Shown: positions 4,024-26,509 of the stretch, piece by piece
Layout of the letters: each line of letters starts with the position of its first letter
How positions within the stretch are numbered: position 1 is the first letter of the stretch
From: a virus
Direction: 5' to 3' (one strand)
DNA length: 30,104 nucleotides
IMG/VR virus record: IMGVR_UViG_3300030333_005082
Span: 1 to 30,104 of that record
Position numbers and translations under genes: made by a program
The notes under the pieces: generated by a model
The model's database searches: none
The model's input: only the letters and a program-made list of their open reading frames with translations
What the model was told of the DNA's origin: nothing

Positions 4024-4308
4024 GTGAGTGATAAATGGAAAACGGGGAATGGGCGAGACGAATACTTTGATGATTCATTGGGCCGTATGGTCAAGTTAAA
4101 CTCACCACAGGCGTTCCTCGCATACCAAGCGAATCAATTCAGAAAGTTGTTCAGTATGACCCGCCACATTGTTGGTTATGGGGATGCAGTTGAGGAATTA
4201 TCACTTGCAGATATTGAGACGGCAGCAGAAGCCGTTTATGCATTGGGAATGGCTGGTAAACTACCGATGCCTAATTCCAAGAGAAAATTGCCGAAAGGCG
4301 ACAAATGA
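4024..4308 (+). CDS. Hypothetical protein, 94 aa
   Basis: This small soluble protein is unrecognised. It has a polar, charged N-terminus (DKWKTGNGRDEYFDD), then two likely helices (PQAFLAYQANQFRKLF and SLADIETAAEAVYALGMAG), and a basic C-terminus (NSKRKLPKGDK). The start is GTG at 4024, because the neighbouring ATG at 4022 is followed immediately by a stop. The GAGG at about 4013-4016 is a usable ribosome-binding site. The end overlaps the following nuclease start (ATGA). It may be an accessory of the flanking ATPase or nuclease, but the only evidence is position. Confidence 0.7.
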   Translation: MSDKWKTGNGRDEYFDDSLGRMVKLNSPQAFLAYQANQFRKLFSMTRHIVGYGDAVEELSLADIETAAEAVYALGMAGKLPMPNSKRKLPKGDK

Positions 4309-5360
4309 AAATTAGGGATGATCGAATGCAGGTATCAGGAGACGGCATTGCGGATATTAGGCCACCAAAGGCATACCCCGTCAATGTCCATGATACACTC
4401 AAATCATCATACGGTTGGATTCCAACCATTGAAGATGATAATATCATCCTCCGTGTATCAAAATCATCAATGAATACATTCACATTCTGTGAACAGCAGT
4501 ATTTCATCAAATACATACTCGGAGTCAAAGAAGTAGAGAATGATGATATGAGACGTGGAACAAATGTCCACGATGCGTTAGAAGATTTCTATGATGCTAT
4601 TGATTTAGAGAAAGCACAGGAGACGCTTGATTCCTATGGCCCTCAAGGGCTTATCGACTACTTCAGGGGGTTCATACCATCTGCGAGCAAAGAGAAGACG
4701 TGGGGGGGTGTCCTGAAGCCCTCACAGCCATTTACGCTGGGGGAGGAGGAACATCTACGCAAATTGATGGTATCCGAAGCATCAAGATTCATTTCATCCG
4801 ACATTGATCATTTTCGACCTGTAATTAACGAGGATTCTCTCGATGCAGTCATTGACCTTGAGGTGGATGGCAGAATTGTATTTGTCCATTTGACGGGAAT
4901 CATTGATAGAGCATTCATGGACCCCAATGGCGACATTCACATTCATGAATTGAAAACAGGACTATGGAAGCATACTGACTTCAAGAAGGAGTCAATGCAG
5001 AAGGAAATGGCATTCTATGTGTATCTACTCCGTAAGTCCAAGGGACACCCATTGAGTGGTAAAACGGCCACTTATTGGGGCTGGGACCACACGAGAGGTG
5101 ATGTTGACGGCTCGGACAAGATTTACCGTTTTGTTGAGAATGTTCGATCAGAAGCGATTCAAGATGTATTGAAAGACCTGAAATCATTGGTTCGTATGCA
5201 CCTGAAATATACAGGGAACAACAATGGTTGGATGTTCCCACAGAAACCGAATGGCTGGGCCACGACTAATCTTTGTGAGCCTTGGTGCAGGGTCAAAGGA
5301 TTTTGTCCGAAATATGGCAGGGTCTTGATGCCTCATGAAATGAAAGCGGAGATTGATTGA
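4305..5360 (+). CDS. Cas4-like PD-(D/E)XK exonuclease with Fe-S cysteines
   Basis: This is a RecB/Cas4-family nuclease by its motif set. An N-terminal cysteine (C62 in FTFCEQQYF) follows the typical 'lS.S.l..F..C...y' start, and an RGTNVHDALE helix lies near residue 88. The active-site acids are D201 (GIIDRA) and E215-x-K217 (HELKTG). Three C-terminal cysteines (C324, C328, C334 in NLCEPWCRVKGFC) together with C62 would bind a 4Fe-4S cluster. Family members degrade or trim DNA ends. In a virus they are linked to recombination, end processing or host DNA breakdown. It lies next to the RecA-like ATPase and primase, with an ATGA overlap upstream. There is no CRISPR context, so calling it a CRISPR Cas4 would be wrong. 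Confidence 0.88.
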   Translation: MKIRDDRMQVSGDGIADIRPPKAYPVNVHDTLKSSYGWIPTIEDDNIILRVSKSSMNTFTFCEQQYFIKYILGVKEVENDDMRRGTNVHDALEDFYDAIDLEKAQETLDSYGPQGLIDYFRGFIPSASKEKTWGGVLKPSQPFTLGEEEHLRKLMVSEASRFISSDIDHFRPVINEDSLDAVIDLEVDGRIVFVHLTGIIDRAFMDPNGDIHIHELKTGLWKHTDFKKESMQKEMAFYVYLLRKSKGHPLSGKTATYWGWDHTRGDVDGSDKIYRFVENVRSEAIQDVLKDLKSLVRMHLKYTGNNNGWMFPQKPNGWATTNLCEPWCRVKGFCPKYGRVLMPHEMKAEID

Positions 5361-6951: not shown

Positions 6952-7118
6952 AGTGCGCTCACCCTGAATGCGACAAGGAGGTATGGCCTTATTCAGGTTT
7001 ACATCAATTCTGTTATCCATGCTACGCTAAATGGCATAATGGATATGCAGAAGCATACGGGTGGGTAAAAATGGACCCTGATGTAGAACCTGAAATGGAG
7101 GTCGAGTTTGATGGGTGA
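6948..7118 (+). CDS. Tiny zinc-finger-like protein, 56 aa
   Basis: The gene begins at the ATGA overlap with its upstream neighbour. It encodes MKCAHPECDKEVW ... FCYPC with cysteines at residues 3, 8, 22 and 25 (C-x4-C-x13-C-x2-C), the same spacing logic as the preceding protein. Aromatic residues cluster after the last cysteine (CYAKWHNGYAEAYGW), and the tail is acidic. One zinc is likely. Its stop lies 8 bases inside the XPF-like nuclease gene, so it is coupled to that gene. It may have arisen by duplication from the neighbour, but sequence identity outside the cysteines is low. Confidence 0.68.
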   Translation: MKCAHPECDKEVWPYSGLHQFCYPCYAKWHNGYAEAYGWVKMDPDVEPEMEVEFDG

Positions 7119-7818
7119 GAAGGTTCTATTCATTGATAATCGTGAGCGTTCAGGTCTTGAAGACCTTGTGAAGAAATACTGCGATAAGAAAGGGCTGAAG
7201 TATCAGACCCGACAGAACATGATCACTGACTACGCCTTTGGTAGTGTTGGTATCGAATCCAAATCAATGGCAGATTACATGAACAGCCTATACAGCGGTC
7301 ATCTTGAACATCAATTACAGAATCTTGACGACAATTACAATCAGGGCATTCTACTTGTATGGGGGACTGTGGACAAATATGTTGCAGACGCCAAGAAGGG
7401 TGGGAGAAAGATACCCTATGCGAGAGCGTGGAGTGGCTTCATTGGGTCATTAGCGAGGTGGGCGGTGGATTATGACGTATCCATCATTACATTGTCTGAC
7501 CGTTCATCTGCGGCACGGTTTATCTGCAAACGGTTTGAGAAGCATGGAACCATTGGTGGGTCTTCCACATATCGTGTAATGAGAAGAACCAATTCAGAAG
7601 ACATGAGGATGGACGTTTTGCGTGGGGCAGGATGTAGTGAAGCAATTGCTGAACGATTGCTTGACCAACACGGCTCGATCATAGAAATAGCAGGTCTAAC
7701 GGGTAAAGAATTGATGAAAATCGAAGGTGTTGGTAAAGTAAGAGCGCAGAAGATATTGACCGTCTTGTCCTCCGAAGCACCTGTGCCAAATGAAAAGGTG
7801 AAAATGACGAGGGCGTGA
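7111..7818 (+). CDS. XPF/Hef-type ERCC4 nuclease with helix-hairpin-helix
   Basis: The 235-aa protein has an ERCC4 nuclease domain followed by (HhH)2, the layout and length of archaeal XPF. N-terminal D9 and R11-E12 (FIDNRER) match the 'vD.RE' motif, and D40 (ITDY) matches the GD acid. The central motif is E49-S-K51-x3-D55, where the family normally has ERKxxxD. Arginine is therefore replaced by serine while the metal-binding acids and lysine remain. The HhH region spans about residues 167-217, with the hairpin KIEGVGKVRAQKI near 203-215. It would cut flaps, forks or branched intermediates in replicating viral DNA. The ATG at 7111 has GGAGG at 7097-7101; the frame also opens at TTG 7108. Confidence 0.88.
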   Translation: MGEKVLFIDNRERSGLEDLVKKYCDKKGLKYQTRQNMITDYAFGSVGIESKSMADYMNSLYSGHLEHQLQNLDDNYNQGILLVWGTVDKYVADAKKGGRKIPYARAWSGFIGSLARWAVDYDVSIITLSDRSSAARFICKRFEKHGTIGGSSTYRVMRRTNSEDMRMDVLRGAGCSEAIAERLLDQHGSIIEIAGLTGKELMKIEGVGKVRAQKILTVLSSEAPVPNEKVKMTRA

Positions 7819-10164: not shown

Positions 10165-11790
10165 TCATCGGCGCATGAAGTTTTCGATTACTTGTGCGGG
10201 ATTGAGAACGGCTTGGCCTGCTGGCGCAATATCCATGCCATGTGCCTTCTCCGCTGCTATAATCGCATCAAGTCCTTCACCGTATGGAATTAGAGACCTT
10301 GTGAAGTATTGAGGGGCCGTTCTCCTCTCTCCTGCCCTGTTAATGAAACTAATAGCAGGAAGCCCCATGACGCCACCGCTGCTGCCTGCGGGTGCGGGGG
10401 CGTAATACCTGCCCGCATACTTACCTGCGGTAAGGGACTTTGGACGTTGATATACGGGTTTTCCCCGCCTATTTCTGATCCAAAACTTGTCCATTGGCTC
10501 ACCAAAGTGTGGACTTTTTTTCTGCCTAATTCTAAAATCATCAATGTTTGCTGGGTCCACAGGTATTCGGGGTAGCATTTCGTGTTTTGTTCCCATCCCC
10601 GCTGTTTGTCCCTTTCTTGGGCCATGCCTCCAAACCATGTGGTCTCCTTTTCCTTCATAACCATAAGAGCCATATTCATGCGGGGCATTTGGATAGCCTC
10701 CTGCAAGAACACCCAATTCGGGTGCGTGTGAATAGCGGTCTAATGCATCGACATTTAGATTTAGATTCTCTAAAGCCCATACTATTTCTTCTCCTGTTAA
10801 TGGTCGTTTTTCGTGTGCGCCGGGATAATCGGAATACAATACATTTGAACCATACAAAATGTCGTCTTTGGGGTTTTTTGATGTATCACCAATTCTTGGC
10901 CTTGGTGTCCACTCTTTTGGAAAATGACCCCATATGTCTGTTGGCTTCAAATCAGGCAATCCTTCAAGGACCTGTCTACCGGGCAATACAGGAGAGAACT
11001 GATTTGGGTCCATGCCGAATAAATCCCTTGAGGCTGGTTCCTGATATGATGCGTGGTTGATCGCAGCCATATCCCAATCACCAAAAGTCACGGGATGATA
11101 ACGAGCCGCACCAAGGGGATTTTCAACAAATGCATACATATCAGGATTGATTTCACGGAGGTCTTCAATGATGTCGAAGGTCCTTTGCATCAATTGATGA
11201 GACCTTATTGCATTTTCACGGTTCGCTACCCATTGGTCGGCCCAGCGTTCAGGATATTCTTCATCAGTCCCTCTAATTTGATTCAACATTCTCTTAGCAT
11301 CTTCTTGCGTGATTCCGTCAAAACTCTTCCCACCATAAGGACCTCCTGTCTGACGATAAAACTCCGGTTGAATCCAATTTCCTGATATTCGATTACCGTA
11401 AAGCCCCCTGTCTCCTTTTGAACTTACTACCTTTGACCATCCCTCACAAGGAGGGCTTGCGAATAGAACATCAACAGGGCCACCAAAGTGGTCAATGATT
11501 TGGTCAGCGTTTAGATTCATAATATCCACACGATGGTCAGGCATCAAACCAACATATTTTCCTTCATGTTGGTCCCAATCATATGTCTGAACATTATGCC
11601 CTCTATCACGGGCTGCCGAAGACCAACCTGCGTGCATTACAGATGAACCATCAGGTCCTACTGCACCGCCTAAAGCGGAGAATAAATCGGCTACATTGAG
11701 ACGGTGGTCATTGCTTTTCATTAGTTGGCCCTCCAAGAGCGTCCACGCTCTCTTAGCCGCCTTATAGGATCGCCGGTCAATATCGCTCAT
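10165..11790 (-). CDS. C5-cytosine-type DNA methyltransferase with long C-terminal extension, 541 aa
   Basis: Motif I is DLFSALGG (residues 35-42). The catalytic motif IV is SPPCEGW with C115 as the nucleophile, and motif VI is VENPLG (222-227). KPTDIWG (282-288) followed by WTPRP is typical of phage Dcm-like enzymes. Relative to those enzymes there is an insertion around 250-280. About 200 extra C-terminal residues are rich in Gly, Pro and Tyr and resemble no methyltransferase part I know. It would methylate cytosines in viral DNA, for example against host restriction. It is the last major gene of the minus-strand virion operon, implying late expression. ATG 11790 is seven bases after the preceding gene's stop. 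Confidence 0.85.
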   Translation of the reverse strand: MSDIDRRSYKAAKRAWTLLEGQLMKSNDHRLNVADLFSALGGAVGPDGSSVMHAGWSSAARDRGHNVQTYDWDQHEGKYVGLMPDHRVDIMNLNADQIIDHFGGPVDVLFASPPCEGWSKVVSSKGDRGLYGNRISGNWIQPEFYRQTGGPYGGKSFDGITQEDAKRMLNQIRGTDEEYPERWADQWVANRENAIRSHQLMQRTFDIIEDLREINPDMYAFVENPLGAARYHPVTFGDWDMAAINHASYQEPASRDLFGMDPNQFSPVLPGRQVLEGLPDLKPTDIWGHFPKEWTPRPRIGDTSKNPKDDILYGSNVLYSDYPGAHEKRPLTGEEIVWALENLNLNVDALDRYSHAPELGVLAGGYPNAPHEYGSYGYEGKGDHMVWRHGPRKGQTAGMGTKHEMLPRIPVDPANIDDFRIRQKKSPHFGEPMDKFWIRNRRGKPVYQRPKSLTAGKYAGRYYAPAPAGSSGGVMGLPAISFINRAGERRTAPQYFTRSLIPYGEGLDAIIAAEKAHGMDIAPAGQAVLNPAQVIENFMRR

Positions 11791-13934: not shown

Positions 13935-16900
13935 TTACTTCACGACATACGGCCTACTCTTGGACATTCCGATAGGTAAAGCCCGTTTATTGCCTCCTTG
14001 GACACCAATTGCACCTTTGCGGTCTGTTGGTGATGAACGATGACCAATTATCATTCTTGTGTTGTTATTGTTCCTCGCAACGATTCTATGGACAACAACA
14101 AGTTTTGTGGATGTTGATAACGACACCACTGTCCTGTCCTGATTCAATGGTCTCTCTTGCGAGGTCATATTTCCAACAGATGCTTGAATATCCGATAAGA
14201 TGCCTTCAATTCCTTTTTCGTATTGTGCTACAACGAAATCACTTGTGCCTTCTTCATAATTGTGTGTTGCTTCAAAAATAGCGAAGAGTCCCACTAAACC
14301 GTGAGTTGAGAGGTCGAGAGTAATTACGTCTCCGGGTTGTAATGAGGTAGCCTGTATCATTCCCATAATTCTAACCATAGGCGCACCATTTTCAACACGG
14401 CTCAAAAGTGATTTAGCCAATTTTAGGGCTTCTTTTTCGGTCTTCAGTCCGGGGACTTCTTGGCGCAATGCTCTTACTACATCCTGATCACTACCAGCAC
14501 CTGCTTGCGTTTTCATCCGTTCAACATCTTTCACTTCAACGAAAATTGTCTCGTTTTCAGCAATTCTATCGCCTTCGACTGCGACTACATTAGGAGAGTC
14601 GAACATTTTGCTGACTGAAATATCTCTCGCACCACTATCAGAACCCAGCCGTTTTCCTGTTTCTTTGAACACTTGACTTGAATATATCAGGACTCCTGAT
14701 GATTTGTTCAACAATTGATTACCATCCAATTGTGAGGCATTACGGATAACTTCCAATATATTCAGCCCACGAGTATTCCTTGAAATGAATGTATTGCTGT
14801 GATCAAGAATATCACGAAGAGAAGGATGACCACCAACACCTATCACTTCAGCCGCACCACCACTTTCTAACATTGCATTTGTTTCTTTCAAGTTGTATCC
14901 CGCTAATGAAGAAGAAGCATCATTCAATAGCGTCATAACTGCGTCAGTAGTCCTTACACCAATTGTGGCATACTGCCCTGATAGCACTTTACCAATTTCC
15001 ATTCCACCATCTGAAAGCGTATCCCCGTCAATGTTTTTGAATGATGCAAATCTGCCATTGTATTCATCTTTGACTTCAGATATTTTCCATTTTTTGCCTT
15101 CTATGTCGAAAATGTATGGTGGGAAAAACTCGGATGTAATTTCTCTACTATCTCTCAATATCTTATTGCCCCTTTCTAATGATTCAATTAAGCCTTGACC
15201 TGAACCGTTATTGATATTGAATGCTCTTTGTGTAAGCATAATGAAATCAGATGGTTTGTATGGATTAAGCCCCCTATATGATATTCCGGTTTTAGTCGTT
15301 TTCAAACCATCGTGCCGATACCAAGATTCCGCCGAATAAGCGTTGATTGTAATTGCATTGTCGATGAAAGTTGGGGCGATTGGATACTTCTTCACAAGTG
15401 GCGATACATCAGCCACTACGCCTGTTGATACAGGGTATCGAATGTTTGATGAAGTCGCTGCCTTTCCTGCCGACTTCTTTGCATAATACAGGGTTTTTCC
15501 AACCCAAGTATGTCCCGCAGGCAATGTAGGTGCAGTTAGCAATGGGGAAGTTGCTGCGGTTGTGTTGATCGTAATGTTGTCCCCACTCTTTGCAGTATAT
15601 TCGATTGAACCAGCATGATTCAAAAATATCAAATTGCCGGAATTGGGCAACAAAGAAGCATCATCTAAAGTCATGAAAGTGCCTGAAGGGTTTGTGTAAT
15701 ACGCTTTGACTACAACCCTATGGTAATTTCGATTTCCATCTTTCGGTTGGTTTCTAACCGCTTCTTCATGGACATATTGTGCGGCATAATCCTTGCCGAT
15801 GTTTGTATTACTTTGTGAATGCCTTACTTGTGTTTGACTGACCTCTTCTAAACCTCCGGGGTGCGTAGTTTGTGAATACCTCGGCTCAATATCAGGAATT
15901 AGGTTCCCGTCTGATATTCTATTCGCATCTGATTTGAAAAACTCAAGTAATGCGGTTGATGGAATTAGATGATATACAATATCATGGTTATTTGGGTCCG
16001 GCCATTCAATTCTAAAGTGGTCATAAGCAGATGAAAGGGGTTCGGTCATTCCAATGTCTTTGTCCATGTTTAATTCAAAAATCCCATATCTTTTGTCCCG
16101 ATGATAGAAATTATCAGACGGGCGTGATACATTTCCTGTATCGTTTGTGTATGCCCCCATCAAGTATCCATCCTGAACCAATTCAGAAGCAAATGGGAAC
16201 ATCTTATTCGGTCTGAATGGCCTTACCACATAATCGACATATTGTCGGGTCGGGTGAGAAGCAGTTGCTCTATGAGACACCCATGTAGTTGGATGCTCAT
16301 ATATCATTGTAGATTTCGGCCCTTCTTCTTCTAAACGATTCAGATATGTTTTTCTCAAAATGAATACGCCACCCCATGGGGGCAAATCAGCACAACCTCT
16401 AACATTCCAAAAATCAACAGCAGATGCTCTCGCTGATGATTCAGTAGTATCGCTTAATACTGCTGACCCCTTTAGTGTATTTCGATCAAGGTCAAACACG
16501 GGCGGCTCGTCATAGAAATCACCCATAGCCACGCTTACTCGTGTAGTTCCAACAGGGGCCGCAACAGTTCCTCTCGTATTTCCGTGCGTTTTCAACAATG
16601 ATTTGGGGATAAATGATGGCGTAATGGGGAATTGCTGCCCTAAAATCAAATCACTGTGTAAAGATGCTGCCTTTGTTGACGTAATCAAATAATCAGTATT
16701 TTGTTCGGATAACCTCTCACCTTCTGTCCTTGTGACCAAACCCATTCTTGGTTCTGCTCTCGCCATAATTTGACGATGGTCTGTTATTTCAGAAAGAGGG
16801 GTTGCGATTACGTTTTCACCAGCAAAATCGGACACACCCCATCCATTTGAAGGATATGTGTCTATACTTGTAATTGACCTTACGTCTTTTGAGTTGGTAT

Positions 16901-19900
16901 GCAATGCATTGCCCACTAAATGATAACCTGTGGCCCCAAATGTATCTGTTTGAACAGTAGAGGTTGCCTGACTTCCGGTTCCTGTTTGGTCAAAAGAAGG
17001 AATCATCGGGTCGCTTCCTTTACTGATCACGGGAACATCATCGAGGCTATTGTGTAAAGTAGAATCGTATTCATTTACCCACATACCAGCGGGTAGGCTT
17101 GTTGGTTTGAACAGCCCCATAGATACCATACCAAAAGAGTGGCCTATTCCTATTGGTTCTTCATTAGGCAAAATGGGTTCATTACTCAAACGCTTTGCAC
17201 TTGATGAATAAGGGGTTGCTTCGCTTGTATGACCACTCATTACCATTCCGATAGGGGTTGTTCTTTCAACACCTGAAAACTTCGGGTCCCACAAGAAATC
17301 ATGTTTATGCGTGCCTGACGCTGGTGCAAGGATTTTGGCACATGAATCGTGAATACCGCCATCAAATCTCCCCTTACCAAATATAGACGCCTGTGTCGCT
17401 GATTGTGTTTCGTGAGGGTCGCCAGCCAACATATCCAACGCATCAGATGCTGTTCTAATCCCCCAAGCACGAACAGGCAAACGCCTACCATAGTCAAAAC
17501 CCACTAATGGATTCAAACCCATGTAAAAATGATGTTTTATTGTGTATCCTCCGGTGCTGGTCCTTTGTGCTTTGAGTGCAATGGTGTTGTTCTTTTCAGG
17601 GTCAATACTATCTCCAATTGATTCACCACGACTATACCTGATGCCGTTGTATATTTTAGGCAGCCTCATCGTTCCTCTTGGTTCTCTAACTGTTGTATTT
17701 CCCATTATTACCGCTGAAGCAGCCTTTAGGGTTCCAACACCATGTCCCCCTGCATTAAGGCCGTTGTATCCATATGACTGCAACCATTGAAGCACATACA
17801 TTCTTTCAAAATTAGCAGCCTTCTTGATCATACCTGAACGATAAGGAGTTAATGAGGTCGTTGTTGAGTTATTCAAAATCAACATATTTGCCGTTTTTGA
17901 GGTGTGCTTTGGTTCTGTAAGGGCCAAACGTGAGTGATTACGCAAAAACAATCCCCTTACAGCGGGGTATTGCATCGCTCTTGGCATTCCCGCTTCACGG
18001 TATCTAAACATCATGAAATGTTCACGGCTGGTTCCCATCAATGCAGGATGAGAGTATTCAGCCAACCAATTGCACAGGAATGCATCGGGCTTACATCCGG
18101 TATTCGTATCATTTTCTTTCAAAAGCCCCATATCCCAATTTTGAGTATCAGAATCATCGACCCTATTCATCATATCAGGGTCATGTGCAAACAAAGGAGG
18201 AACTGTTGCTAATTCTGTTGCAGCACGAGGCGTAATCCATCCCCATTCACTACCTCTCACCAAAAACCAATTCGTTTCGCTCACAGGTATGACGAACGGT
18301 GCGGGTCCTTGGGATTCAAAATGCATTCTTGGCAAAGAAGGTAATGGGCGACCTCCTGATAACTGATAATCAGATACGATAAAACCATTTACCATTATTT
18401 CGGAAGCAGTTTCGTCCCTATGTCTCCTTACAGGGGCTTGTGCAGTAGTCATATCATCTCGGTAAGTCCGTAAGTATGTAATGCCCGAAATGCCCGCAAC
18501 CGAAAGGTCTGTTTCATACCTGCCAAAATGAACTTGTTCGGTAAATCCTTCACAATTCGTCATTGTTTGTCCGGGTGCGATCAAATAGTCAATCTGACGG
18601 CCTTCATCGTTTGGTGTATCATGGCCGTATGTTGCTTGAAGGTAAGTTTTCCTATTTTCACGACCATAACCAATAGTCATCTCATCAAAAGGTAATGCTT
18701 CGGTTGTCCCTGACCCTGTGGCCCCTGCGTGTCCTGCAACATTTTTCAATTCAATCGAATCAAAGTCAAAATCGCCACCTGATGTGTGTTGCGATGCCCC
18801 TTGGAATGCATGGTGTTTATTCTCTGTTTCAGCCTCAAACATCAAGGTGTATGCCGAACCATGACTTCGATGCAATTGTCTTCTCATACCAAAAGGAGTC
18901 CCCCTATGGCAAAGAGGGGTGACGAATGAATGGCCCTGTCTTCCAAATCTTAGCCTCATGTGAGGAACTAATTCACCCGTTTCCAAACCATTGTTTGTTA
19001 AATGTGCAACAGAACCTCTTTCAGCATGGTCTGTAATCCTATGTGAGGAATATATCCTTGTAGTCCCGCTGGGGACTGCACCCGGAGTAATCGAAGAACT
19101 CAATCCTTGTTTTGTCGATATGTCGGGGTGAAGAATACGTTCACAATGGAATACCAACATACGGTCATGTGTATCGAATTGACTTACTTCTCCAATAGCC
19201 ATGGTGTTTTCAATTGCTTCGTGATTTGTGGAGGTCTCTCCATGGTCAAGGCCATAAATTGAACCAAGAGTATCAAGGAATGTGTTTTCAAGCGTTCCTG
19301 AATCAGAAGGATGAGGTGGTTCGATTCCCCCTAATCCCCATGTTTTGTCCGAATGAGCCTGTATTCGGTCATGTGCAGACCTAACAAATATACCGCCCGG
19401 AATCTGATCAGGGTCAGGCAGTTGAATACGGAGGTTTGGAGTTAGTTTTGCATTTCCTGTTGACGGACCAATTCGTTCAAATCCTGTGTCCGGGTCAATT
19501 GAAATGTTCTCTACTTTGAAATCCCGAATGATTGTTCCAAATGGAGAACCACCGTTCAAAGTCAATTGATTTCCAAGGTCATCAACGACTGCCAAATCAT
19601 CGAATACCTGTTCCTCGTTTGTAATTTTGAGACCACGAACTCTTTCTTCATTTACTTTCCTTTTCACAAAGAATTGTTGTGAGTATTTGGTTGAATTGGT
19701 TCCAATGTAATTTCCTTGTAATTCTGTATTCTCTAAGGATGTATGAGCCGCCCGTGATTCGCCACTAACGCCCCATAATGATGGTGTTTGGTCCAATTGC
19801 CCTAATTCATCAACCTCATTTTTATTGATTATTGTGTTGGGGGACATAACGGCTGATTCAGCAATAGTTTTACCTTCAGACAAGACAATACCTTTCACTC

Positions 19901-21236
19901 CCTGTGTAGCGGTTGGTTGTTTTGTCCCATATTCTGTTTTCGCAATTTGTAATTGCCTAACGTCTGCGTCATTTCGGTCTAACAAAGGATTTGCAGCAGT
20001 CACGCCTTGAATTGCAGGTTCTGTGATCGTAAAATCAGGAGGAGGCATATCAGGTAAATCACATGAGTTTAATCCCTCTATGCTGAACCGGCAAAAACCA
20101 TGATTTTCAGTATGCTTTACGGCGGTTCCACCTCTTGCGTTGTAATTTAGTGCAGGGAGGCCCATATTACCGCCATCCATTGGTTTTGCCGTTAAATGCC
20201 ACACAGGAAGTGTTTGTCCAAGCCCTTGAATAATTGGACCACCGTTTGCTTCGGCCCAATAACCTCCATCAGCAGTAGCATTGTCTAATTCCCAAGACAC
20301 AACAACAGTATGCTGTGGTGGGGCAGCATCAATACTGATTTCCATAGGTTTCGGCATTGCACCCCCTACGGTTGACTTTCCTCCCATGTATCCTGTATTC
20401 ATGGCCGTTCCCAATTCTTTGTCCGTGATTCCGATCAAGTCAACAATGCCGCCTAACTCGTAAATACCATCACCATGCGTATATGCAGCAGGTTGTAAGC
20501 CACCCGCAACATAATCATCATCATCACGAAGCCATGGCCGAACAAATCTAATAGAATTGTAAGTGTATCTTCTTGTGGCAACAGGGCTATGAGAGGTAGA
20601 ATGATGACCATCAATTGGGTCTCCATTTTCCGACCCTCCTGAAGTGACCACGAACTCGCCCTTTTCAGGAAGGTCAGAAGGCGCACCATTGCCAAATGCC
20701 CCCCTCATGTAAACTCTCAATGTCGTTGCATCATCTGCACATGACTTTACAAATCCCGCATAGGACTCCCTGCCGGACATCTTAACGTATCTCGCTCTCA
20801 AATATCGTGAAGTCCCTCTTTCACCCACTTGTCTTACTCTTTGGCTGTTAATTTTGGCTGCGATCAAACGAGTCGCTTCTTCAGACCCAAGATTGTATCC
20901 AACACCGCCATTTGCGCTTGCTGCGGCGTGCAAATCGACCAATACCACGTTTGTTGTATCTGATGTAGGTTGGGCTGGGACAGCACTACCACCCGCATCA
21001 CCGAGAGGTGTCCTGATAATTACAGTAAAGCCCTGTCTCCAAGATTGAGTGTTTTGACCGTATTGGAACCCGCCTGCCACAGTAGGGTCTATTTCATCAG
21101 CATATTCAGTATCAGGGTATGTGATATGCATGGCAAACCACCCATTTGCGGGGTATCCTGACGCACTACCAAGTGGATTGATAATAGCAGGATATACCTG
21201 CTTTCTATCCATATAGCCCGTCTCATATTTGCTCAT
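13935..21236 (-). CDS. Giant tail/baseplate protein with C-terminal hub-like domain, 2433 aa
   Basis: One of the largest genes in the window. Residues 1 to about 2080 are beta-rich, with many Gly, Asn, Pro and His and no domain I can name. The C-terminal part (about 2080-2350) resembles a tail-hub/gpD-like domain. It has a helix LEVIRNASQLDGNQLL, then helix EKEALKLAKSLLSRV, then strands with LQPGDVITLDLS and GLFAIFEATHNYEEG. This 'pGD.v.l ... l.G.y.v...+H' order is typical of phage hub proteins. It would sit at the tail tip, bridging tail tube and receptor-binding parts. ATG 21236 is preferred over GTG 21245; the gene overlaps or abuts the upstream gene's stop at 21239. The basic tail (last 60 residues) is unusual. 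Confidence 0.78.
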   Translation of the reverse strand: MSKYETGYMDRKQVYPAIINPLGSASGYPANGWFAMHITYPDTEYADEIDPTVAGGFQYGQNTQSWRQGFTVIIRTPLGDAGGSAVPAQPTSDTTNVVLVDLHAAASANGGVGYNLGSEEATRLIAAKINSQRVRQVGERGTSRYLRARYVKMSGRESYAGFVKSCADDATTLRVYMRGAFGNGAPSDLPEKGEFVVTSGGSENGDPIDGHHSTSHSPVATRRYTYNSIRFVRPWLRDDDDYVAGGLQPAAYTHGDGIYELGGIVDLIGITDKELGTAMNTGYMGGKSTVGGAMPKPMEISIDAAPPQHTVVVSWELDNATADGGYWAEANGGPIIQGLGQTLPVWHLTAKPMDGGNMGLPALNYNARGGTAVKHTENHGFCRFSIEGLNSCDLPDMPPPDFTITEPAIQGVTAANPLLDRNDADVRQLQIAKTEYGTKQPTATQGVKGIVLSEGKTIAESAVMSPNTIINKNEVDELGQLDQTPSLWGVSGESRAAHTSLENTELQGNYIGTNSTKYSQQFFVKRKVNEERVRGLKITNEEQVFDDLAVVDDLGNQLTLNGGSPFGTIIRDFKVENISIDPDTGFERIGPSTGNAKLTPNLRIQLPDPDQIPGGIFVRSAHDRIQAHSDKTWGLGGIEPPHPSDSGTLENTFLDTLGSIYGLDHGETSTNHEAIENTMAIGEVSQFDTHDRMLVFHCERILHPDISTKQGLSSSITPGAVPSGTTRIYSSHRITDHAERGSVAHLTNNGLETGELVPHMRLRFGRQGHSFVTPLCHRGTPFGMRRQLHRSHGSAYTLMFEAETENKHHAFQGASQHTSGGDFDFDSIELKNVAGHAGATGSGTTEALPFDEMTIGYGRENRKTYLQATYGHDTPNDEGRQIDYLIAPGQTMTNCEGFTEQVHFGRYETDLSVAGISGITYLRTYRDDMTTAQAPVRRHRDETASEIMVNGFIVSDYQLSGGRPLPSLPRMHFESQGPAPFVIPVSETNWFLVRGSEWGWITPRAATELATVPPLFAHDPDMMNRVDDSDTQNWDMGLLKENDTNTGCKPDAFLCNWLAEYSHPALMGTSREHFMMFRYREAGMPRAMQYPAVRGLFLRNHSRLALTEPKHTSKTANMLILNNSTTTSLTPYRSGMIKKAANFERMYVLQWLQSYGYNGLNAGGHGVGTLKAASAVIMGNTTVREPRGTMRLPKIYNGIRYSRGESIGDSIDPEKNNTIALKAQRTSTGGYTIKHHFYMGLNPLVGFDYGRRLPVRAWGIRTASDALDMLAGDPHETQSATQASIFGKGRFDGGIHDSCAKILAPASGTHKHDFLWDPKFSGVERTTPIGMVMSGHTSEATPYSSSAKRLSNEPILPNEEPIGIGHSFGMVSMGLFKPTSLPAGMWVNEYDSTLHNSLDDVPVISKGSDPMIPSFDQTGTGSQATSTVQTDTFGATGYHLVGNALHTNSKDVRSITSIDTYPSNGWGVSDFAGENVIATPLSEITDHRQIMARAEPRMGLVTRTEGERLSEQNTDYLITSTKAASLHSDLILGQQFPITPSFIPKSLLKTHGNTRGTVAAPVGTTRVSVAMGDFYDEPPVFDLDRNTLKGSAVLSDTTESSARASAVDFWNVRGCADLPPWGGVFILRKTYLNRLEEEGPKSTMIYEHPTTWVSHRATASHPTRQYVDYVVRPFRPNKMFPFASELVQDGYLMGAYTNDTGNVSRPSDNFYHRDKRYGIFELNMDKDIGMTEPLSSAYDHFRIEWPDPNNHDIVYHLIPSTALLEFFKSDANRISDGNLIPDIEPRYSQTTHPGGLEEVSQTQVRHSQSNTNIGKDYAAQYVHEEAVRNQPKDGNRNYHRVVVKAYYTNPSGTFMTLDDASLLPNSGNLIFLNHAGSIEYTAKSGDNITINTTAATSPLLTAPTLPAGHTWVGKTLYYAKKSAGKAATSSNIRYPVSTGVVADVSPLVKKYPIAPTFIDNAITINAYSAESWYRHDGLKTTKTGISYRGLNPYKPSDFIMLTQRAFNINNGSGQGLIESLERGNKILRDSREITSEFFPPYIFDIEGKKWKISEVKDEYNGRFASFKNIDGDTLSDGGMEIGKVLSGQYATIGVRTTDAVMTLLNDASSSLAGYNLKETNAMLESGGAAEVIGVGGHPSLRDILDHSNTFISRNTRGLNILEVIRNASQLDGNQLLNKSSGVLIYSSQVFKETGKRLGSDSGARDISVSKMFDSPNVVAVEGDRIAENETIFVEVKDVERMKTQAGAGSDQDVVRALRQEVPGLKTEKEALKLAKSLLSRVENGAPMVRIMGMIQATSLQPGDVITLDLSTHGLVGLFAIFEATHNYEEGTSDFVVAQYEKGIEGILSDIQASVGNMTSQERPLNQDRTVVSLSTSTKLVVVHRIVARNNNNTRMIIGHRSSPTDRKGAIGVQGGNKRALPIGMSKSRPYVVK

Positions 21237-21238
21237 AA

Positions 21239-24200
21239 TCACCACACCAATCTTGAAGCATACAATGCCTGTGCTTCAGCAACCGTAAATGCCCTGTCCC
21301 ACACGCCAATATGAGCCACGGCCCCGCCGTGCAAATAAATTGGCCCTACTTGATTTAGTCCGTTTGTTCCACCCCCACCCGAAGGTGCAGTAGAACCGTA
21401 TGTGTTTCCTGCTGTTGCATCCGGTCCTTGGCAGAAGTAATGGCCTGCGGGTGTAAATGGGCCACCATGTAATGCAACGCCCACTGTGGTCATCCCTTCT
21501 TTTCTGACTGCTTTTGTCGCATCTACTGTCGATGCTGGACCATTTGCCAATGGGACATAAGGGTGGTCAGGCACACCTTCTGATGTTGGAACACCTTGTT
21601 GGTCGTGAGAAGGATAGTATTCAGGAGAAGTCGTCCCTACTCTACTATTCGCCATTGCTGCTGCAACGTATAACTGATCATAATCAATATCGAGAAATGA
21701 AGTTAAATCACTACCATTGAGAATCAATTTAGCAGTTGATTTTGTCGCACCACTACTATTCCCATCGTGAACAAATACAACATGATGCCAAGCACTTTTT
21801 GTAATTCGTGGGTCAGACCCGTAAATTGCCTTGTATGCTGTTTCATTTATGCGTGCATAAATGGGTTTTGAATCATTATGTGCAGCATGAAGTGCGAAAT
21901 TAAATGATTGTGTTCCTGCACTTACAGTATTGCCCCCCATGGATATTCCCCAAGGGTTTCCATTGTAGTCAATTCCGTGGATAATAGGCCCCGTCATCCA
22001 ACCATTGTTGGCCCCCCCATTATCGAAATCTGCATTGAACCAAAATGAAATTGTAAATGGCTTCATTGCAGAAAGGGGCCGATTTATTGTAGTATCCATA
22101 TAGCCATGTCCGGTATTTGGTCCGATATGGGGGACTGTTGGCATAACCAATTTTGCCGCTGGCATTGACGGCCTTGGGGCTTTGTAATCGTGGCATATCA
22201 AGTAAGGGTATCCCGATGTCGGCCAAGAACCTGCACCTGTATGGGGGTGGAACTGCATTGGTTTGTATTGAGTTGGGCCGAATGGTGCTGATTGAACTCC
22301 GGCTGTTCCAGCAGGCAAACTCAATTTTTGATAACGACCGTAAATATGTTCTTTCAAAAGGGGCATATAGGTCCCTGCATGATGGAATCCCTCCGAGTTT
22401 TGAGGGAATGGATGGTCGGTGGGGTCGAATGGAGGCAATACAGTGTATGCCGCAAGTGTTTCTATGTCTAAATGCATTGGTAGATACATCAAACAATCAT
22501 TTAGAATAATCTGCTGTGGAGTCGATGCGGGCATATGTTCTCTCATTTTGTGATGCAATCCAATGTATGAATCTTCATTGATCGTATCTGCGTTTTTCAA
22601 ATGTGTAAAGTCAAGAACAGCAGCAGCATTATTCGTTTCATGTAGATTTTGAAGTCCTGAAAAGCCTTCAGGTCCTTTTGAGTAATGATGCTTGTAAGAA
22701 TCACTGTAATCATTCGCTGAACCGTCACTAATGTCCAACATCACACCTGTATGGCCTCCTCCAAAGAATAGAATGCCTTTTGAATTGACTAATGGGTATA
22801 GGATTTCGATTTCTAAGCCAACAGCGTCTTGTTCCGCCCCTGCTGCGTCCTTCGTAAACAAAGAATCGTAGAACTTTTCCGTTTCTTCAAAAGGCGTGAT
22901 ATTTCTAATGAATAAACCATTATTTGCCCTTGACCCATAAGATGAATTGGGCGATATTTGCTCAAAATATGCCTTTTTTCCCCCAATTTGGAGGATTCCC
23001 CTGTGATGTGGTCCAATTTCTGAAGCCAGCGACAAAAGAGCCTCTTTTGCCCCATTATCTACACAAATCTGTTTTATTGGGGGGCTTGTTCCTGCGTTAA
23101 AGGCGGGCATAGTCACCGTCACACCATGCATCGCTTGAGTAGCGATTGCCCTTCTTGGATGAACTACTTTTTCAAATAATGCGCCGCCGGTCAAAGGAGT
23201 TTCTTGGGAGTCCTCTCTTTCAACAGGGATTACAGTTTTGACTTTGAGTCGCTGACCTATTCCACTGTAAGTCCGTGGTGTCCCTGCAAAATCATCCATC
23301 AATTTTCCATGAACTCCCCCTGTGAATGTTGTGATCGGGACATATGTCTCGCCATCAGAGCCAAGTGGTAGAGGTGCTGGGAATGAGTTTGCTTGGTAAT
23401 GGCTACTGTTTGTAGCAATAAGGCCGCCTGAACCAATACACTGAATGGGTTGATATGGATATGGACTTTTGTTGTTGAACCAAATGGCAAAATTACGGCT
23501 TGTAGCACCCGGAACAGTGCTGTGAATTACAATTGTCTTTCCTTTTTCACCACTTCTACTTTCTACCTCTTTTCCTTCAATCGCTCTCACATACCCCATG
23601 TGGCTACCTGTGTTCAAATCGGATGATATGAGTGTTGTAAACGGCGAGGGAGGGTCAAATGCGCTACCTCCTTGTGTATTCTTTGCTTGAGGATGTGCGG
23701 CCATGTTGATTCTTCTTAACACTTCATCATAGCATGAATTAAAATCACGATTTGCATTAGCAATTGCTGTAAAATCTAATTTCATAGGTCTAACGTATTT
23801 CAATGATTGACCATCACTTGTTTTTCCTTTCAAGGATAATGCAGCAGGGCGACAATCAACGCCTATATTCAGGGGTCTGTCTGCAAATGAATACAATACC
23901 TCATCACAATCAAAGTCGAATGCCTCCATAGAGGGGCCGTTCAGTATCCACCATTTGTTTGGATTATCATTATCAGGCACTATATCTTGTGCGCCGGACG
24001 AACTGTATGTTTTTGTTAGCAAAGTCGCCACCCCCGCCGCAATGTCTGCTGCGATTGTTGCTTTGGTAAGGTTGGGGTGTGCATTGTAGGCTAACACCCA
24101 TGGGTCCAAAGCAGCAGCATCACTACCAACCAAATATCCGCCCATTGTGACGGTCATTCCCGCTTTAATGTCGCTGATCAAAGCAGCAGCAAGGCTTGTT

Positions 24201-26509
24201 GCTTCATCTGAACGATATTCCGGGTCCATTGCCCACAATTCAGTCGCATGAGCAATTGTAAACACATTTCCAGCAAGGGTCGCTTTCGCAACATAGCCAT
24301 TTCTGCCCAATACACCTTCTCCTATTGTGATGTAAGCATTAACTCCAATTCCTAATGTTCTACCATTTTCTCCCGGCGTAGCCCAAGCACTTGCGTCATC
24401 AACAGTGACGGTTCCTGCACCTACATCCACAGACACAACCACCGCCTGAACATTTGGCCGCTGGCATCTGATCAGTGGGCGGTGAGGTAATGATTTGTTG
24501 CCACTGTTGCCCAAAGAATGTTTGTAGATTGAATCCGTCACTTCAAATGAAGATGCACGATTTTTTATCCCCCAATCAATTGAAAAACGACTTTCTTGGT
24601 TTTTCATTTCGGGCCTATTTGTTGCCGTCATGGTGCAATCAATCGTCATCTCAAAGTTCTGTTCTGATGGCAATGGCTGAATTGTATCGCTATTGGGGTA
24701 GATGATTTTGCTGCTATCGAAGAACATTGAAGGGAATAGTGGGAACTCTGTTATTGCTCTTGTCGATGCATAATATGTTGATGCCTGTTTATCATTCCTT
24801 ACAGATGCATTCCCCGAACCGACAATACGGTCTTTCCATCCGGGGAACTTTGGATGCTGAACTCTTGATGGTTTAATGTCTATTGCACCTTGTCCGGGGC
24901 CTCCAAGTGAGAGGGATACTGTTGGTGTTCCAAGGTCTCCTATTTCCTTGAGGAATGTTCCTTCATCTAATCCAAAATCTCTTTCTGCATTCTGATCAGC
25001 AAGGTCAGACATCATAGACCTCCCTCTTATGGTCAAACCTGCTTCTTTGTTTGTGCTTGTTCCGGGTTCGATTTCTTCAATTCTACCCTGCATCAATGAG
25101 TATTCCAAAACAACAGTATGTGGGGCGGGGTTATTGGAGACAGTGGATAAATCGAGTAAAGCCCCACCCATCTTACGGTCATGTGGATGAATTAGGACTA
25201 ACAATTCTGTTTTCGTGACTAAATTGTCGATCACGTCAAAGGCTCGATTTGAAGTCAAAGATGTAATGCTTGGTGCATTTCCATAAGGAACCAACGGGTT
25301 CATACTTTTGTTATCTCCAATCGTTTTGCCTATATGAACTGTAAGAAGATGATAATCTGATTTTGTTGTAGGGTCGGGAACTGTAATGCTTGGGACAGGC
25401 ATTGGCCGCCCATACCCTGAATATGAAATTGGTTTGTTGACCATACAATCATCTATATTGACGAAAGGAGAGGGGGTGTAATCGCCTGTGGGGGCTGATT
25501 TCAAGATATTTGACTTCAATGGTTTCTTGAGGTCTTTTGTTGGTATTGAAATGAGGCCGCCGGGGGAGTATATGGTAAATGGAACATCAGCAGGTGATGC
25601 GGGGCCAAGTGCGGTGTCGTATGGTCTTCTCAATAAATCAGATAGAACTCTTGTTTTTCCTGTGGATTTTGATTGATAGACAGTTGTTCCCGATGGGTGT
25701 GTTCGTTTAACTACTAAATGCCCCGCATGGCTATTATCGCCTTTGATGTATGGTTTTGCGAAATCATTGACTACCGTGTGGGCATTTGCTATGTTTGTTC
25801 CAGCAATTACTTCGCCCGTTAGGTCTATTGCGTCATAATGGACTTCTATGTTCGGGGGGACGCCGAACTCGGTCTTCAGATATGTGGGGGTTTCAATGAT
25901 GGCGCATCTTGTTTGCTTACTCGGCGTAAGGTGTTGGACATAAATGTCGTTTGAAGGAGTGTATTTGATGTTTGGTTGTCCCGTTGCAGAATTAGCATTT
26001 TTGTGTTGTTTCAATTCTGCCGTATGTGATGCATCGAGTGTTTTCAATAAAAATGGGGCGATGTCTTCGACAGCAATAGCGATAATATCATCACAAGTCG
26101 ATGACGACAAATTAGATGACGAAAGTCCAAGCATTCTATACTCCCCACTACCATATTCACAGATTATTCGGTTGTAGGTATGGTTTGGCAAAAGACCCAT
26201 TTCAGCGGTTTTGGTTTTTGAACGGTTGATCACACGATGAATCTCACCTTGATAGACCATTTCAGTCACTTTGACTTTATCACTTTCATTTACGATAGAC
26301 CCTAATGATAAATCATCACTTTCGTAGGTAAATGAATCCGAAATACCCTGAACTGTCTTTTTGACGAATTGCTTATCAGGGGCGGGCAATGCTTTGAGGA
26401 AAAACTCGCCTTCTACAATGGAATATGATGTTGCACCACCCATTCCACCTCTTGTAGTTGCTTCATCGGGTTCGATCAAAGTCCCCAAGTTGTCCCACGG
26501 TTCAGTCAT
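21239..26509 (-). CDS. Large tail protein with hub-like segment and C-terminal LamG domain, 1756 aa
   Basis: The N-terminal half includes YSLMQGRIEEIEPGTSTN, then LTIRGRSMMSDLADQNAE (about 465-515), which recalls the 'G.I..i ... i.G.s....L' part of tail-hub/gp27-like proteins. The centre (about 680-830) has a helical Ala-rich stretch (AADIAAGVATLLTKTY). The C-terminal 280 residues form a concanavalin-A/LamG domain: FTISFWFN (about 1480), WHHVVFVHDG (about 1574), KLILNGSDL (about 1595) and a final AHIGVWDRAFTVAEAQALYA helix (about 1732). LamG domains in virus tails usually bind sugars, suggesting host attachment. The start ATG follows the previous stop directly, with GGAGTGA as SD. I would call it an adhesive baseplate protein. 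Confidence 0.8.
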   Translation of the reverse strand: MTEPWDNLGTLIEPDEATTRGGMGGATSYSIVEGEFFLKALPAPDKQFVKKTVQGISDSFTYESDDLSLGSIVNESDKVKVTEMVYQGEIHRVINRSKTKTAEMGLLPNHTYNRIICEYGSGEYRMLGLSSSNLSSSTCDDIIAIAVEDIAPFLLKTLDASHTAELKQHKNANSATGQPNIKYTPSNDIYVQHLTPSKQTRCAIIETPTYLKTEFGVPPNIEVHYDAIDLTGEVIAGTNIANAHTVVNDFAKPYIKGDNSHAGHLVVKRTHPSGTTVYQSKSTGKTRVLSDLLRRPYDTALGPASPADVPFTIYSPGGLISIPTKDLKKPLKSNILKSAPTGDYTPSPFVNIDDCMVNKPISYSGYGRPMPVPSITVPDPTTKSDYHLLTVHIGKTIGDNKSMNPLVPYGNAPSITSLTSNRAFDVIDNLVTKTELLVLIHPHDRKMGGALLDLSTVSNNPAPHTVVLEYSLMQGRIEEIEPGTSTNKEAGLTIRGRSMMSDLADQNAERDFGLDEGTFLKEIGDLGTPTVSLSLGGPGQGAIDIKPSRVQHPKFPGWKDRIVGSGNASVRNDKQASTYYASTRAITEFPLFPSMFFDSSKIIYPNSDTIQPLPSEQNFEMTIDCTMTATNRPEMKNQESRFSIDWGIKNRASSFEVTDSIYKHSLGNSGNKSLPHRPLIRCQRPNVQAVVVSVDVGAGTVTVDDASAWATPGENGRTLGIGVNAYITIGEGVLGRNGYVAKATLAGNVFTIAHATELWAMDPEYRSDEATSLAAALISDIKAGMTVTMGGYLVGSDAAALDPWVLAYNAHPNLTKATIAADIAAGVATLLTKTYSSSGAQDIVPDNDNPNKWWILNGPSMEAFDFDCDEVLYSFADRPLNIGVDCRPAALSLKGKTSDGQSLKYVRPMKLDFTAIANANRDFNSCYDEVLRRINMAAHPQAKNTQGGSAFDPPSPFTTLISSDLNTGSHMGYVRAIEGKEVESRSGEKGKTIVIHSTVPGATSRNFAIWFNNKSPYPYQPIQCIGSGGLIATNSSHYQANSFPAPLPLGSDGETYVPITTFTGGVHGKLMDDFAGTPRTYSGIGQRLKVKTVIPVEREDSQETPLTGGALFEKVVHPRRAIATQAMHGVTVTMPAFNAGTSPPIKQICVDNGAKEALLSLASEIGPHHRGILQIGGKKAYFEQISPNSSYGSRANNGLFIRNITPFEETEKFYDSLFTKDAAGAEQDAVGLEIEILYPLVNSKGILFFGGGHTGVMLDISDGSANDYSDSYKHHYSKGPEGFSGLQNLHETNNAAAVLDFTHLKNADTINEDSYIGLHHKMREHMPASTPQQIILNDCLMYLPMHLDIETLAAYTVLPPFDPTDHPFPQNSEGFHHAGTYMPLLKEHIYGRYQKLSLPAGTAGVQSAPFGPTQYKPMQFHPHTGAGSWPTSGYPYLICHDYKAPRPSMPAAKLVMPTVPHIGPNTGHGYMDTTINRPLSAMKPFTISFWFNADFDNGGANNGWMTGPIIHGIDYNGNPWGISMGGNTVSAGTQSFNFALHAAHNDSKPIYARINETAYKAIYGSDPRITKSAWHHVVFVHDGNSSGATKSTAKLILNGSDLTSFLDIDYDQLYVAAAMANSRVGTTSPEYYPSHDQQGVPTSEGVPDHPYVPLANGPASTVDATKAVRKEGMTTVGVALHGGPFTPAGHYFCQGPDATAGNTYGSTAPSGGGGTNGLNQVGPIYLHGGAVAHIGVWDRAFTVAEAQALYASRLVW

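Follow-up and report, generated by a model that had tools for sequence, protein, structure and literature searches.

The hub closes the tail of a tailed virus and takes part in genome release. To our knowledge, few hubs of archaeal viruses have solved structures, HFTV1 being one of them; its baseplate hub gp44 (PDB 9h4p), from an archaeal siphovirus, is a single protein of 954 aa with the hub core at its N-terminus. In Mu gp44, the MuSo2 43 kDa protein and Neisseria 3d37, the complete hub is contained in one protein of ~330-380 aa. All four hub domains, HDI to HDIV, likewise lie in one protein in T5, T4, 80alpha and T6SS; lambda carries HDI in gpL and HDII-HDIV in gpJ, and RcGTA splits HDI from HDII-HDIV over gp13 and gp15, again with HDI encoded upstream (PMC10721106). 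An earlier note on the DNA studied here held that ordinary tailed phages keep both parts of the hub in one protein, a premise that lambda and RcGTA already contradict.

Results

Two giant proteins are encoded side by side in a conserved tail operon

The window analysed here, a 30,104-base IMG/VR virus record taken at its full length, has genes for replication and repair in its left part, encoded on the plus strand, and a tail operon in its right part, encoded on the minus strand. The operon runs in the order P4, P3, P2, P1, P5, P6. Its two largest ORFs are giant and adjacent, just as the earlier note had described them: P2 (21239-26509, minus strand) encodes 1756 aa and lies directly upstream of P1 (13935-21245, minus strand), which encodes 2436 aa when read from a GTG and 2433 aa from the in-frame ATG at 21236. 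Both are tail-tip proteins, P2 belonging to a conserved family and P1 carrying a hub at its C-terminus. Upstream of them stand P4 (29102-30103, minus strand), a tail protein by synteny that is cut by the end of the window and measures ~420 aa in relatives, and P3 (26510-29098, minus strand), a tail-tip protein of 862 aa. Downstream, the hub gene is followed by P5 (13579-13920, minus strand), a small conserved gene of 113 aa that keeps a length of ~113 aa in nearly all relatives, and by P6 (12371-13579, minus strand; 402 aa), which is conserved and, on the basis of synteny, the last gene of the tail operon. In relatives, P4 directly follows the tape measure gene, and we infer that P4 is possibly a Dit or connector protein. 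Comparison of P4, P3, P5 and P6 with HFTV1 gp41 and gp42 and with hub profiles returned nothing.

Many relatives of P1 and P2 are present in viral contigs of IMG/VR, those of P1 at 61% to 39% identity. When 50,697 phage records were searched with tblastn, P1 had no match and P2 had chance-level matches only. No relatives of either protein were found in bacterial and archaeal genome contigs, so that no host can be assigned from proviruses. The gene order P4-(P3)-P2-P1-P5-P6 is largely kept across relatives, and P2 and P1 are conserved together: in 52 of 52 non-redundant junctions they are adjacent, co-oriented and never fused, and no ORF matches both. One clade instead has P2 fused to a P3-like sequence, 46 ORFs being matched by both P2 and P3. 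This fusion gene measures ~2,070-2,400 aa in L009, L010, L016, L019, L023 and others, and in L022 the P3-like and P2-like sequences are separate again. The N-terminus of P2 is longer by ~180-200 residues in several relatives (L002, L005) than in the protein of the window, and in L103 P1 is spread over two ORFs of 951 and 1518 aa, reflecting either a sequencing error or a real break. P4 is preceded in G001, a 107-kb relative, by a gene for a tape measure protein of 493 aa (PHROGs E 1.7e-9). This record also matches terminase, portal, head protease and major head protein, which together indicate a tailed virus.

The late part of a hub lies at the C-terminus of P1

We are all but certain that P1 is a hub protein. 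Searched as a single protein against Pfam, PHROGs and PDB sequences, P1 returned nothing; the late hub emerges with the family. The Pfam profile of the YQBQ-like hub, PF24032, matches 28 of 38 P1 family members at E<=1, with a best value of 2.7e-5, the individual matches falling under the curated cut-off of 27 bits and the longest covering profile positions 123-284 of 294. In addition, an HFTV1-hub profile compared with all P1 and P2 windows scored 44.3 at P1 residues 2301-2356, against 19.7 for the best forward windows off this segment and 17.8 for the best reversed ones. An AlphaFold model of P1 residues 1240-2436 (pLDDT 61, pTM 0.63) was matched by Foldseek to 3d37 at 1.9e-8 as the best and to HFTV1 BPH at 4.8e-8 as the second hit, with further matches to MuSo2, Mu gp44, monocin, lambda gpJ, T5 pb3 and VgrG. 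The late-hub-like segment that the earlier note had placed at about residues 2080-2350 of the 2433-aa protein is borne out by these profile and structure matches.

The hub core, that is the HDII-HDIV-type part, spans P1 residues 2098-2357 (14175-14954, minus strand) and includes the motif PGDVITL at residue 2304. A helix followed by PGDVI-type strands, a trait of gp27/gp44/YqbQ-type hubs, is present at residues 2265-2357. The late part of HFTV1 gp44 is similar to this same stretch, and P1 also resembles the late part of the Mu gp44, MuSo2 43 kDa, Neisseria 3d37 and YqbQ-like hubs (PF24032). Helices precede the PGD motif by 206, 184 and 143 residues in P1, by 207, 185 and 146 in Mu, by 195, 177 and 139 in HFTV1 and by 204, 179 and 141 in lambda J. 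From residue 2098 on, P1 shows the standard layout of a hub core, and this helix spacing fits a divided and a complete hub alike. In contrast to the N-terminal core of HFTV1 gp44, the core of P1 is C-terminal and comes after ~1,960 residues.

A short HDI-like signature lies in P2

The candidate HDI domain of P2, which is based on hhalign, phrog_177 and AlphaFold strands, spans residues 387-510 (25351-24980, minus strand) and holds a strand-strand-helix core signature at residues 466-510 (24980-25114, minus strand). In an unbiased scan with a Mu-family HDI profile, the best match paired P2 residues 472-505 with residues 63-95 of Mu gp44 at a score of 31.7. Elsewhere, no forward window scored above 17.6, and the highest score among 157 reversed windows was 18.0. 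This result confirms the early-hub-like segment which had been noticed at about residues 465-515 of the 1756-aa protein. A tight hhalign comparison of P2 with the Mu-family HDI gave a probability of 91% and a score of 30.7 (null mean 7.6, sd 2.1, max 13.5). Moreover, positions 138-172 of phrog_177, annotated as 'baseplate hub', weakly match the same segment in 2 of 45 members, with E-values of 0.043 and 0.15. The strong match is short, covering 33-44 residues of Mu-type HDI only, and the full-domain alignment of P2 387-510 with the Mu HDI is weak (score 17.5). Neither an HDI profile built from haloarchaeal hubs nor lambda gpL profiles detect the P2 segment.

In the AlphaFold model of P2, strands are placed at residues 387-393, 423-431, 435-442, 464-483 and 491-498 and a helix at 499-508. 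The order of strands and helix over residues 387-508 is the order expected for HDI. The earlier note had proposed a resemblance to hub structures for both proteins; by Foldseek it was recovered for the P1 model, and the P2 model returned no PDB hub at E<=10. By sequence, the HDI signal is found in P2 only and the late-hub signal in P1 only: a late hub sought in P2 gave no signal, a P2-like HDI was not found in P1, and P1 gave no HDI signal, residues 1950-2160 included.

Directly after the HDI signature lies the most conserved stretch of P2, residues 511-600 (24710-24979, minus strand; KEIGDLGTP...WKDRIVGSGNASVRNDKQ), with a conservation of 0.73-0.84 and a pLDDT mostly below 50. High conservation combined with low model confidence suggests that this stretch could be an interface. 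No cysteine cluster follows the HDI signature; the cysteine columns are isolated ones (355, 625, 682, 886, 926 and others). Further towards the C-terminus, residues 1467-1600 (21710-22111, minus strand) resemble a laminin-G/concanavalin-like domain (PF13385, E 1.6e-5) at 25.6 bits, under the cut-off of 27.6. This weak lectin match was the only one obtained when P2 was searched as a single protein against Pfam, PHROGs and PDB sequences, and it points to a probable lectin-like domain with predicted glycan binding. Against BFVD, the P2 model matched unnamed viral proteins, namely A0A1B1IU10 (E 6.7e-27, 16% identity) and three A0A516 entries, which, judged from the predicted fold, are probably distant homologues of P2.

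Discussion

One hub shared by P2 and P1, or a complete hub in P1

At the level of sequence, the best reading of these results is a split hub with HDI in P2 and HDII-HDIV in P1, and our confidence in it is evenly poised. P1 and P2 would then together build the distal tail tip of a probably marine and archaeal Caudoviricetes virus whose tail is probably non-contractile, with P2 giving the first, tube-like hub domain and the C-terminus of P1 giving HDII-HDIV. Assembled as three copies of each protein, they would make a single trimeric, pseudo-hexameric ring that closes the tail tube, like gpL/gpJ and gp13/gp15. The stretch of ~3,200 residues that separates the hub parts, comprising the rest of P2 and the first 1,960 residues of P1, would hang from this ring and, together with the N-terminus of P2, may act as host-binding and shielding domains, among which the lectin-like domain of P2 would be located.

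The region of P1 directly before the hub core bears on this reading. Residues 1964-2097 (14955-15356, minus strand) are predicted by AlphaFold to form a beta-rich domain with strands at a pLDDT of ~57-87, and the model is compatible either with P1's own HDI or with an HDII or HDII-insertion-type domain. If the former were true, P1 alone would be a complete four-domain hub (~1960-2357), and the HDI-like domain of P2 would be a second tube-type domain in another tail-tip ring, making P2 comparable to a connector or to an evolved distal tail protein with lectin domains. We consider this arrangement rather unlikely. It is consistent with the moderately confident strands in residues 1964-2097, with a segment length and helix spacing that fit a canonical hub, and with the fact that Foldseek gives its lowest E-values for complete hubs (3d37, 3cdd, Mu gp44, HFTV1 BPH). 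Moreover, the P1 model aligns with complete four-domain hubs of 316-387 residues over 377-452 columns. The late part by itself would not account for such lengths, the partial alignments of T5 type covering ~193 columns only. Residues 1964-2097 would fall within this span in the model and could, given such lengths, be P1's own HDI. However, the absence of an HDI sequence signal in P1 1950-2160 speaks against a complete hub, and superpositions of the model on Mu-type hubs that include residues 1964-2097 leave an rmsd of 25-28 Å. By our estimate, extending the alignment from ~193 to ~425 columns improves the E-value from ~2e-5 to ~2e-8 only, which implies that the added region is a much poorer match per residue, and J-type tips, which lack HDI, also align over 653-666 columns. 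Because of this small gain in E, the poor superpositions and the equally long alignments of HDI-less gpJ, we regard the long alignments as weak evidence, and Foldseek, which gives lengths without coordinates here, is not taken as proof of a complete P1 hub.

In a quite different view, P2 466-510 has no relation to the hub and represents a tube-like or another kind of beta-hairpin-helix motif, in which case P2 would be a large receptor-binding protein or adhesin of the tip and P1 an unusually long hub. The shortness of the match would be in line with this view, as would the lack of a PDB fold match for P2, its unnamed structural relatives in BFVD and its lectin-like domain. We nevertheless find it improbable, since the HDI score is far above every null, two hub profiles (Mu-family and phrog_177) land on one P2 segment, and the region does not match lambda Dit gpM or Mu gp43C/45/46. 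Taken with the evidence on P1, the proposal in the earlier note of one divided hub holds insofar as hub parts occur in both proteins; the division itself is less settled, given that alignments of 377-452 columns and a Mu-like helix spacing also suit a complete hub in P1. Its suggestion of a hugely expanded tail tip is supported.

Relation to the split hubs of lambda and RcGTA

If the split reading is right, P2 and P1 would work like a hub of the lambda/RcGTA type. Like gpL and gpJ, they are two genes, on this reading with HDI upstream and HDII-HDIV downstream, which come after the tape measure and distal tail genes, and the order tape measure-P4-P3-P2-P1 parallels lambda H-M-L-(K-I)-J. The likeness to RcGTA gp13/gp15 (megatron) would also be one of layout, with HDI and HDII-HDIV distributed over two genes. 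In contrast, lambda gpL is 232 aa long, and gpJ, at 1132 aa, carries the hub close to its N-terminus, whereas the proteins described here have 1756 and 2433 aa and the late hub is C-terminal. Lambda has the K and I genes between L and J, and none lie between P2 and P1; RcGTA differs in size, in host domain and in an intervening gene that is absent here. The Fe-S cysteine cluster of lambda gpL and RcGTA gp13 was not found in P2. When P1 and P2 were compared with lambda gpL and gpJ by hhalign, singly and as small families, only background scores were obtained, leaving direct descent from lambda-like tips unsupported. We do not file P2 and P1 in the lambda/RcGTA lineage because there is no detectable sequence likeness to gpL and gpJ, the Fe-S cysteines are lacking and the sizes are different.

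Hub splitting as such is known from lambda and RcGTA; a split at this size is nowhere near matched there. Whether we are dealing with an archaeal-virus lineage that has a lambda/GTA-type split hub, with halves >3,000 residues and a gene boundary apart and both proteins giant, we judge to be somewhat doubtful, at a little under an even chance. If true, hub splitting either arose more than once or goes back to a time before the tailed viruses of bacteria and archaea separated. The P1/P2 family allows the frequency and the age of such splitting to be tested. A widespread, probably marine family in which the hub core ends one giant protein, and the first domain probably lies on another, widens the known hub layouts. 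In addition, two proteins that rank among the largest unannotated ones in the genomes of this family receive a role.

Host and further genes

The virus is probably archaeal and marine. An archaeal host is suggested by an XPF/Hef-like ERCC4 nuclease with a helix-hairpin-helix in the window (7108-7818, plus strand; PF02732 1.3e-15, NCBIfam Hef 1.5e-21), together with the HMG-CoA lyase and archaeal-type thermosome genes of the 107-kb relative at L283:3071-3961 (minus strand) and L283:19079-20000 (plus strand). These two genes are comparable to the chaperonin and HMG-CoA lyase reported for Aoguangviridae (PMC10768690). Traits of Magrovirales, the viruses of Poseidoniales, are HMG-CoA lyase, a chaperonin, their own replisome including PolB and a genome of ~90-110 kb; the 107-kb relative shows the lyase and the thermosome, as reported for magroviruses, whereas among five related records a single one yielded PolB, and membership of Magrovirales is possible. 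The same 107-kb record also encodes a 3528-aa ORF with a signal-peptide-like start (L283:7284-17870, plus strand). Among the remaining genes of the window are a PD-(D/E)XK nuclease (4305-5360, plus strand; PF12705 1e-22) and, downstream of the tail operon and on the same strand, a possible cytosine methyltransferase (10165-11790, minus strand; phrog_757 5e-5).
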